DNA of 32,674 nt from Thermodesulfovibrionales bacterium (GTDB lineage: Bacteria; Nitrospirota; Thermodesulfovibrionia; Thermodesulfovibrionales; Dissulfurispiraceae). The DNA is taken from positions 1 to 32,674 of the forward strand of contig JASEGS010000019.1 in the NCBI GenBank assembly GCA_030017995.1, given 5' to 3'. Position 1 is the stretch's first letter. Every line of letters begins with the position of its first letter. This document shows, one piece after another, positions 14,362-30,454 of the stretch. A program made the translations under genes and the position numbers. The notes beneath the pieces are model-generated. The model saw only the letters and a list, made by a program, of their open reading frames with translations, had not been told where the DNA came from and did no database searches.

Positions 14362-14394
14362 AACCATGGGAGGGGCTATGCCCCTCCCATGGTT
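14362..14394. terminator. Perfect GC-rich hairpin downstream of the DUF3373 gene
   Basis: 15-bp arms AACCATGGGAGGGGC (14362-14376) and GCCCCTCCCATGGTT (14380-14394) with a 3-nt loop. It lies just past the stop of the minus-strand DUF3373 gene and so probably ends or stabilises that transcript. No T-run follows on either strand, so it is not a textbook intrinsic terminator. Confidence 0.55.
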
Positions 14395-14404
14395 TAATAG
14401 AGGG

Positions 14405-16042
14405 TTAGAACAAAACATCAAAGGTTAGGTAGATATCGTGTGCATTCTTAACCGGTGCAAACAACTGTGTTCCCGATGGATCTATTGTATTTAAATCAGA
14501 GATCTTCTTCGGCTCTCCAATCCAGTTGTTGCTCCCTGTATATTCAAACTTGTAATACTGGTAGCCGAGTCTTGCAAATGCCTTTCCTTTTTTCGAAATA
14601 GGCTTTAGATTAAGCTCCTGAATTACATATGCCTCATATACATCGCCCCTTGTGCCGAGCTTTGATGTCCACATATCATCAGATGCTGGTATCATGCCAA
14701 TCCAGTATTTTGAGCCATGATTGTACTCAACGCCGATTTTTGTCCCGCTCTTGAGATCATACCTTGCGCCAAGATAGATGGCAGAGCCAGTGTGGCTTTT
14801 CTTGTTCCCCTCGTCATAAAGCAATCCAAAGCCGGCATTCTGCCAAGTCGCTCCGCCATCCATCGAGAAGAATGGCAAAGAGAACATATTATTATTTGGA
14901 TGCGTCATGCTCAAGGCGCAAGATGCAAAGAGATTAAGGTCACCGGGGCCAACCTTTTTCATTTTCCCCATGACCACCCCGCCTAACCATTCAATATCAC
15001 CAAGATTCGCCGTGACTGGTGTATTGACTGTCACAAAGTTTCCGCCGCCCATATCCACTAATTGATTCATACCATCGGATGGCGCATTGAAAATATTAAA
15101 TCCCCTCTGATACTGAAGTTCTATATGCAAGTTCTCTGTATCGTAGGGAACAACATTAAAGCCGATGAAATCAGTGTCTTTCAGGTTCGAACTGAACCCG
15201 TTATCAAATCCCCTTCCAGCTCAAAGCTTTACATAGGCACCAGGGAGCGCCTCTATATCAGGCGCAAAACCAAAGGATGCACCATCAAATGCATAATCAA
15301 CCAATAGATTAGGAATTCCTGCTGTGCCAATCCTTTCGGCATTCTGTCTCAAATTACCGGGCACGCCGCCAGTTGACGGCCTTCTACCAACGGATAACCA
15401 GATAGGCGCATCCCCGATATTGCTCCATGTGGCGTATGCATAATCAACCCTTAGGGTATTGTCAGAAGGCACATGGGTTACAACGCCGTCAAATGGGCCA
15501 AATGCCCTATCTGCAAAGAAATTACCCTGAACAGGAGTCATGGTCTCATGCCCGAATACCTTGTACATCAGAAGGCGTGCCTTGACATTAATATCCTCTG
15601 TCGCCTTTGCCCTGAGGTTCAAACCGAAGCGGTTTGTAAAAACAGTATCATTTTTAGCTGTGTAACCAGACACGGGAGAGACAAGAAAAAGAGGGTACCC
15701 GGGTGCTGGTTGGTAAGGTGTTGTAGTAAATGGATTATACTGCATATAGTCATGAACTTTACCTCTGAGAGAGTCAAACCTGAACCTGTAATCCCCGCCG
15801 ATTTCAAGCCATGAAAGATGGCCTGCGCCGTCGGCGGCCTTTTCGGCCTTTTGTTCAACAACTGTGATTCGTTCCTCCTTTAAAGCCTCTTTCTTCTGCA
15901 TTTCCTGCATCTGCTATTTCAAGCGATCGAGTTCCTTTGAGAGGGCTTCGAGCTTCTGAAGAAGGTCTGCCTGATCAGCAGCAAATGCTGGCAGAGGAAG
16001 AAAAAGGGAGAGAGAAAGGAGAATTGCCAGAAAATTCCTCAT
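14405..16042 (-). pseudogene. DUF3373 porin-like outer-membrane protein with two in-frame stops
   Basis: A single reading frame of 546 codons broken by TAG at 15914-15916 (codon 43) and TGA at 15221-15223 (codon 274). The three open pieces (from 16042, 15910 and below 15220) are in the same frame with no insertion or deletion. The start at 16042 has a strong AGGAGG and opens a signal peptide (MRNFLAILLSLSLFLPLPAF), followed by a short coiled coil of the kind found at the N-terminus of DUF3373 proteins. A DYRFRFDSLRG strand and many alternating beta-like strands follow, ending in a phenylalanine (LTFDVLF), typical of outer-membrane barrels. The TAG replaces what is probably Gln (CAG) in the run LK-stop-QMQEMQ. 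Function is unknown; a porin or anchored barrel is inferred. It is either a recent pseudogene, a sequencing artefact, or a stop-codon readthrough case. Confidence 0.8.
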
Positions 16043-16067
16043 AAACACCTCCTTAATTTTTTCTAAT

Positions 16068-16096
16068 TCTATAACACGGGACAAAGGATAAGTCAA
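16068..16096 (-). promoter_or_regulatory. Sigma-70-type promoter of the DUF3373 gene
   Basis: Minus strand TTGACT (16096-16091), 17-nt spacer, TATAGA (16073-16068). Transcription would start about 20 nt before the ATG at 16042, leaving room for the AGGAGG site. The promoter looks intact although the gene is interrupted. Confidence 0.6.
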
Positions 16097-29131: not shown

Positions 29132-30454
29132 TTATTCCTGAATCGAAAACGTGCCTGTCTTGTCTATCTTGATTGTCGAATCGAGACACGCAACCTGAAA
29201 ACCATTTTCCTTTAAGAGGTGATATCCCATCTCTGCCCTCAACCCTGTATCGCAATAAAGCACCAGCCTCTTGTCCTTTGGTATTTCCGCAAACCTATCA
29301 GCAAGCTCATCCAGAGGTATATTCTTAGAGCCTTTCACATGACCTGTTGCATATTCATCTGCATCTCTCACATCTATGATTATCACATCAGGCGGAAGAT
29401 TTGCAGCGATCTTTTTAAAGTCTGAAGGCAGCACTGTTCCGGGCTTTGGTTTTGGCACATAAACTATTGCTGTCTTTGCAGGGCCTGAGCTTATTGGATT
29501 TCCAGCAGCCTTCCATGCCTCAAAACTCATAGGCAGAAGTCTTGTTCCTTTATAACCCCAGCTTATCGCCTTTTTTGCGGCATCTTCAGCCCTCTCCCCA
29601 TAAAATACTATCGGGGCCATTTTATGCTGCGGGAACTTGTCCTTCATGCTGTCAAGTTCATTAACCGCAACCGCAACTGCGCCTTTTATATGACCCTTTT
29701 CTACTGCATCCTTTGGACGGGTATCAACAAGCACATGTGGAATATCTTTTTCTATTGCGGTTTTAAGCCATGAAGGAGTTATGTTCGTAGTCTCTGTCTG
29801 TATCCAGTCGGGAAATCCTCCGATATAGACCTTTACATTTGTATAGCCAAGGCTCTTTGCCTTAACAGCAGCAAGCGGGCTTGAACATCCGCCAACACAG
29901 TAAAAGACCATAGTCCTGTCCTTTTCTTTAGGGAGTTTGTCAGTCATTTTCTCAAAGGCTGCTGCCGGTATTACTATCGCCCCCGGGATATGCCCTTCTT
30001 CATATCTCGGCACAGGTCTTGCATCCACGATAACAAGGTCTTTTCTTTCTGCAATGAGCTTTTTAAAATCCTCCTTTGAAAGTTTGTCCTCTGGCTTTAT
30101 TGTCTTGAGAATATCAAACCTTGTAATATTGGTCGCAACCTTTTTGCCTTTCTTCTCCACAAAGTTAATCTGAAATGCCTTCCCCTTGTATTTATTCATA
30201 TCCTCGATGCTGCCCATGTTCTTGACCTTTGTAGAATCATCAAACTTCACTATCTCTTTTGCAACAGCGAGGTCGAGCTGTATAGTCTCTGCCTGATAGG
30301 AGACACTATCAAGGAGCCCCATCAGCACTCCCGGCTCAGGCTTGTGGCAGCCCGCGCACAAAGGATGCAGGGTCGGTTTTGCCTGCTGTCAAAAAGCTGT
30401 CAATGGCAAAAGCAAAAACATCAGAACCAAAGCACTTTTAAAAAATCTTTTCAT
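29132..30454 (-). pseudogene. Exported triple-rhodanese protein with CxxCH motif, interrupted by in-frame TGA
   Basis: A frame of 441 codons. ATG 30454 with AGGAGG 8 nt upstream opens a 21-residue signal peptide (MKRFFKSALVLMFLLLPL...), then TGA at codon 22 (30389-30391), then the same frame continues with QQAKPTLHPLCAGCHKPEPG. CAGCH is a heme c-binding motif, expected only in an exported protein, which supports the upstream signal peptide as the true start. Three rhodanese domains follow: one (about DARPVPRYEEGHIPGA to YCVGGCSS) with active Cys, a middle one (DTRPKDAVEKGHIKGA to VFYGERAED) lacking the Cys, and a third (DVRDADEYATGHVKGS to LYCDTGLR) with Cys. Without readthrough the only start is TTG at 30361 and no export signal remains. 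Sulfur transfer or binding in the periplasm is inferred. Confidence 0.78.

Follow-up and report, generated by a model that had tools for sequence, protein, structure and literature searches.

The DUF3373 family has been listed among the putative outer-membrane pore families (PMC4827864), and outer-membrane barrels containing selenocysteine (Sec) have been predicted before, in the MtrB/PioB family and in a TonB-dependent receptor (PMC13188914). The bacterial SECIS element has been modelled as a hairpin with a stem of 4-16 bp and a loop of 3-9 nt with a G in the first two positions, located 16-37 nt from the UGA and with an energy of at most -7.5 kcal/mol (PMC13188914). The locus described here is a DUF3373 gene, interrupted by TAG and TGA, in a window of 32,674 nt, that is, the whole stretch of DNA analysed, which is the entire contig C10 of a draft genome of 1.70 Mb (55 contigs, 97% complete). 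We regard it as probable, with some room for doubt, that the TGA at 15223-15221 is a Sec codon, or was one until very recently, because it occupies the exact position of a conserved cysteine in an otherwise conserved gene, is followed by a SECIS-like hairpin and belongs to an organism equipped with the Sec machinery.

Reading frame and product of the interrupted gene

The gene and its flanking signals are as follows.

14405-16042, minus strand: DUF3373 (PF11853) outer-membrane porin gene, 546 codons in one frame, with stops at codons 43 and 274
16068-16096, minus strand: promoter-like pair TTGACT - 17 nt - TATAGA, read directly
16048-16054, minus strand: ribosome-binding site AAGGAGG, 5 nt 5' of the ATG, read directly

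Direct reading of the minus strand from 16042 to 14405 gives one frame from Met to a C-terminal Phe, with the terminal TAA included in the 546 codons, as had been described in an earlier note on this DNA made from the sequence alone. The single frame through both stops, the promoter, the ribosome-binding site, the signal-peptide-like start and the terminal Phe were all found again, and no frameshift was detected over the 546 codons. The Pfam profile matches on either side of the TGA (profile positions 2-143 before it and 146-409 after it), and since the match resumes without a missing residue, frame and spacing are intact at this point beyond chance. When read through the TGA the translation scores 468 bits against PF11853, for a cut-off of 26.1, and each piece also matches alone. 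Just past the gene, at 14364-14392 of the window, lies a perfect 13-bp inverted repeat, CCATGGGAGGGGC-ATA-GCCCCTCCCATGG, which is terminator-like in form and is followed by no clear T-run.

An AlphaFold2 model of the protein, of moderate confidence (pLDDT 70), shows a beta-barrel of about 20 strands after an N-terminal helix, and its top matches in the PDB are porins. The genomes of its relatives bear the names Nitrospirae or Nitrospiraceae. The genome itself encodes a second DUF3373 paralogue, on contig C5 (G000:C5), which is intact, including its Cys, and shares 38% identity with the window porin.

The TGA codon and its proposed decoding

Two features concern us here.

15221-15223, minus strand: in-frame TGA, codon 274, the proposed selenocysteine codon, placed by alignment and lying in a predicted barrel strand (residues 270-278)
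15182-15200, minus strand: SECIS-like hairpin CGGGUUC-AGUUC-GAACCUG, with a stem of 7 bp and a 5-nt loop, AGUUC, that has G at position 2 followed by U

The alignment with full-length DUF3373 proteins that the earlier note had proposed was made with 71 sequences, taken from three sources: the same family of genomes, GTDB contigs and the phylum. At the TGA column the expected residue is Cys, present in 70 of the 70 other homologues and encoded by TGC or TGT, and no other column of the alignment exceeds 30% Cys. Near-invariance at the 95% level is reached by 100 columns, and the window protein differs at one of them, the TGA, the other 99 of 99 being kept. The maximum-likelihood tree gives it a terminal branch of 0.17, against 0.29 for its sister, and no member of the clade lies closer to the common node. 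The retention of these 99 positions and the short branch rule out an old pseudogene, and the gene has been under full constraint until now. Within strand 270-278 the invariant K272, C274 and G276 lie on one side and the hydrophobic or aromatic residues 273 and 275 on the other; residue 274, which shares strand parity with the invariant Lys and Gly, therefore probably faces the pore.

The search for selB and selC called for in the earlier note found both genes, along with other parts of the Sec pathway.

Contig C22, 36997-38841: SelB, 378 bits
Contig C3, 26290 (L078:1501-1598): tRNA-Sec, anticodon UCA, one copy, 69 bits
Contig C14: SelA, 624 bits
Contig C5: SelD, with one in-frame TGA
Contig C51: formate dehydrogenase (fdhA), with one in-frame TGA

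With SelA, SelB, tRNA-Sec(UCA) and two TGA-containing genes of this kind, UGA is almost certainly read as Sec in the source organism. Every anticodon was read among 40 tRNA-family matches: the sole UCA is that of tRNA-Sec, tRNA-Cys has GCA, and no CUA anticodon, whether of an amber suppressor or of a pyrrolysine tRNA, occurs among these matches from the 97%-complete genome. tRNA-Sec is thus the only tRNA found able to read TGA, and none was found for TAG. An overlap of selC with selB has been reported for some Nitrospirae (PMC13188914); in this genome tRNA-Sec stands alone on contig C3 and selB lies on C22. A general change of the genetic code, which had been discounted from the stops of other genes in the window, is rejected on the wider count as well, as the long frames in 424 kb end in TAA (137), TGA (104) and TAG (70).

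The hairpin after the TGA follows the published rules, as do the native hairpins of selD and fdhA, which served as positive controls. Its apical loop lies 27 nt past the TGA, a spacing that falls between those of fdhA (GUUGCC-AGUCU-GGCAAC, 18 nt, range 18-19) and selD (CUGUUCCA-GGUGC-UGGGGCAG, 32 nt, range 31-33), and its energy is -8.1 kcal/mol alone and -9.2 kcal/mol when the 43 nt 3' of the TGA are folded. The negative controls, run with an identical energy cut, gave a pass rate of 1.7% both for 16,613 sampled codons of the genome and for 1,063 Cys codons in its long frames, and a passing hairpin follows the Cys codon in 2 of 68 homologues. A looser background test without the energy cut passes 9% of codons, and in absolute numbers SECIS-like hairpins are no rarity. 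The shuffling z-score of the porin hairpin is unremarkable (-0.6 to -0.8), folding of the UGA with a longer downstream stretch gives competing structures of similar score at some lengths, and the two bases on either side of the G[G/U]N loop core, A and C, do not form the pair that is usual there.

Several further observations count against Sec. The residue following the TGA is Ala (GCT), where the relatives usually have Tyr, or else Phe, Gly or Trp; selD of the same genome likewise reads UGA-GCU, and it is possible that GCU was favoured after the UGA as a weaker termination context than UGA-U. None of about 85 DUF3373 matches, from 396 genomes of the phylum and a search of the order, has TGA at the Cys position, which makes the window gene a singleton, and no Sec-containing DUF3373 was found among 46 loci of the homologue search. 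The gene had also been chosen for having stops, and its frame, apart from the TGA, is not open from start to stop, since a TAG precedes the TGA and would, if real, end translation first.

The TAG codon and competing explanations

15914-15916, minus strand: in-frame TAG, codon 43, in a predicted N-terminal coiled coil and a variable column of the alignment

The earlier note had taken both stops together, as a single phenomenon; the alignment parts them. At the TAG column 35 of the 71 sequences have Gln, the others Gly, Lys, Arg, His and further residues, so that the position, unlike the invariant Cys, is a tolerant one within the predicted coiled coil. TAG is one base (C-to-T) from CAG, the codon of most relatives. 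The choice that had been offered for both stops, between recent decay, a sequencing or assembly substitution and readthrough, accordingly divides: decay or substitution fits the TAG, and readthrough, in the form of Sec insertion, fits the TGA with its invariant Cys and complete machinery. We infer that the TAG is a separate event: one base wrongly sequenced or assembled, a variant among strains, or a knock-out of very recent date. A genuine, fixed TAG would mean that the gene has fallen silent and that the TGA is a fossil left by a very recent selenoprotein. Translation restarting at the ATG of codon 45 is rejected as a way to make a functional porin, because the product would have no signal peptide.

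Two DUF3373 genes of other genomes give a control for the background rate of stops.

L025, residue 77: in-frame TAG
L058, residue 443: in-frame TGA

These are the only lone in-frame stops in about 80 homologues; both come from draft genomes, neither lies at the Cys, and they indicate that stray stops arise at a few per cent. Many further disruptions in other DUF3373 paralogues would have pointed to ordinary decay; none is present in the C5 copy, and the homologues yielded these two, at other positions. In another draft genome the DUF3373 match is split across frames near its 3' part (L022/L023, G010:C99:25491-26650), which suggests a frameshift there. Other interrupted genes were sought in 424 kb of stretches, about a quarter of the genome. 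A codon-bias scan missed the window porin itself and was replaced by a frame scan with Pfam checks, which found no other stop within a recognised domain; 10 of 75 candidates were checked by Pfam, and for the remaining ones the judgement relied on a start codon close by or on a non-coding appearance.

Among the other explanations, the one that survives best is a very young pseudogene, in which ordinary nonsense mutations made both stops and only chance placed the TGA on the Cys; we consider it unlikely, yet deserving of serious weight. In its favour, the gene has two stops, the TGA is one transversion from TGC or TGT and the TAG one transition from CAG, and the C5 paralogue with its intact Cys could render the window copy dispensable. 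Against this, a random nonsense change strikes the Cys codon with a probability of 0.003-0.005, computed from the gene's own codons, so that either of two would do so in about 0.7-1% of cases. For each neutral nonsense change 3.4-4.1 missense changes would be expected across the 100 near-invariant columns; the gene shows none, and the probability of zero with two nonsense events is about 0.04-0.05. Neither a frameshift nor a long branch accompanies the stops, and the hairpin would be an additional coincidence, of 1.7%.

It is improbable that mistakes of assembly or sequencing, or minor strain variants, account for both stops. The genome is a draft in 55 contigs, and the stops of L025 and L058 show draft-genome homologues with one lone stop each; here, the same gene would have had to suffer two independent single-base errors, one of which fell on the invariant Cys, and the 424-kb scan recovered no comparable case among the candidates checked. 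It is still more doubtful that the gene works as it is, with a full-length porin requiring both readthrough of UAG-43 and Sec at UGA 274, two recoding events that would gate outer-membrane expression. Readthrough of both stops by suppressor tRNAs or under a changed code, including pyrrolysine at the TAG, is scarcely credible. In its favour, both stops stand in frame in a conserved gene. Against it, the 40 tRNA matches hold no CUA and no UCA other than that of tRNA-Sec, tRNA-Cys has GCA, and TAG and TGA close many normal long frames, although a further tRNA might have fallen into assembly gaps of the 97%-complete genome.

The reading of the TGA as a Sec codon is thus preferred. SelB, with Sec-tRNA(UCA), would read TGA 274, steered by the hairpin at 15200-15182, and an outer-membrane DUF3373 porin would thereby have selenium in place of its sole conserved Cys. 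The TAG would have arisen apart and, if it is a very recent knock-out, in a gene that had been working as a selenoprotein.

Possible function and comparison with known systems

The genes neighbouring DUF3373 in relatives encode multihaem cytochromes, rhodanese proteins and sigma-54 activators. In the window a protein with three rhodanese domains is encoded at 29132-30361, and rhodaneses also lie near DUF3373 genes of relatives (L027). The C5 paralogue is located inside an apparent respiratory operon (L127:9529-19858; G000:C5, about 29.5-39.9 kb) with a molybdopterin oxidoreductase, two Fe-S subunits, a TorD/NarJ-like chaperone and a PKD protein. Past this operon come the Sec-containing selD, a few genes from the DUF3373 paralogue, and a TauE/SafE exporter, and the region may possibly constitute an oxyanion-respiration and selenium locus. 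For the predicted pore-lining thiol or selenol, a redox role or one in binding metals or chalcogens is a reasonable guess. Another porin, ExtI, which belongs to a different Pfam family, has been linked to selenite reduction in Geobacter (PMC5877670), and this is only a parallel.

DUF3373 is absent from the 119 prokaryotic selenoprotein families and subfamilies of a 2026 review (PMC13188914), and among the papers searched none names both DUF3373 and selenoprotein. If the TGA encodes Sec, DUF3373 would be a selenoprotein family new to that list and a rare case of Sec within an outer-membrane barrel, and a functional role would be indicated for the single invariant Cys of the family. It would also illustrate that a Sec codon can hide in a gene that automatic annotation would label broken.

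By sequence the closest solved structure is PDB 10aw ('50 kDa outer membrane protein'), which aligns over most of the profile (E 5.9e-19) and differs in that the profile alignment puts an Ala where the conserved Cys would stand. The MtrB/PioB-family selenoprotein (GSU2204 family, NF041027) is likewise an outer-membrane beta-barrel with a predicted Sec (PMC13188914); it represents a separate family, and no NCBIfam model matches the window porin. Two proteins encoded in the same genome, SelD and formate dehydrogenase, share with the porin an in-frame TGA followed by a hairpin under the same rules, the fdhA loop AGUCU resembling the porin loop AGUUC and selD sharing UGA-GCU, although both belong to known selenoprotein families and have no extra stop. 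Nearest of all stand the Cys-type DUF3373 porins (PF11853), at roughly 47-67% identity, which have the same domain, length, signal peptide, coiled coil and barrel and the near-invariant positions in common except for the Cys; the window porin differs from them in having TGA in place of that Cys, Ala next to it and the additional TAG.
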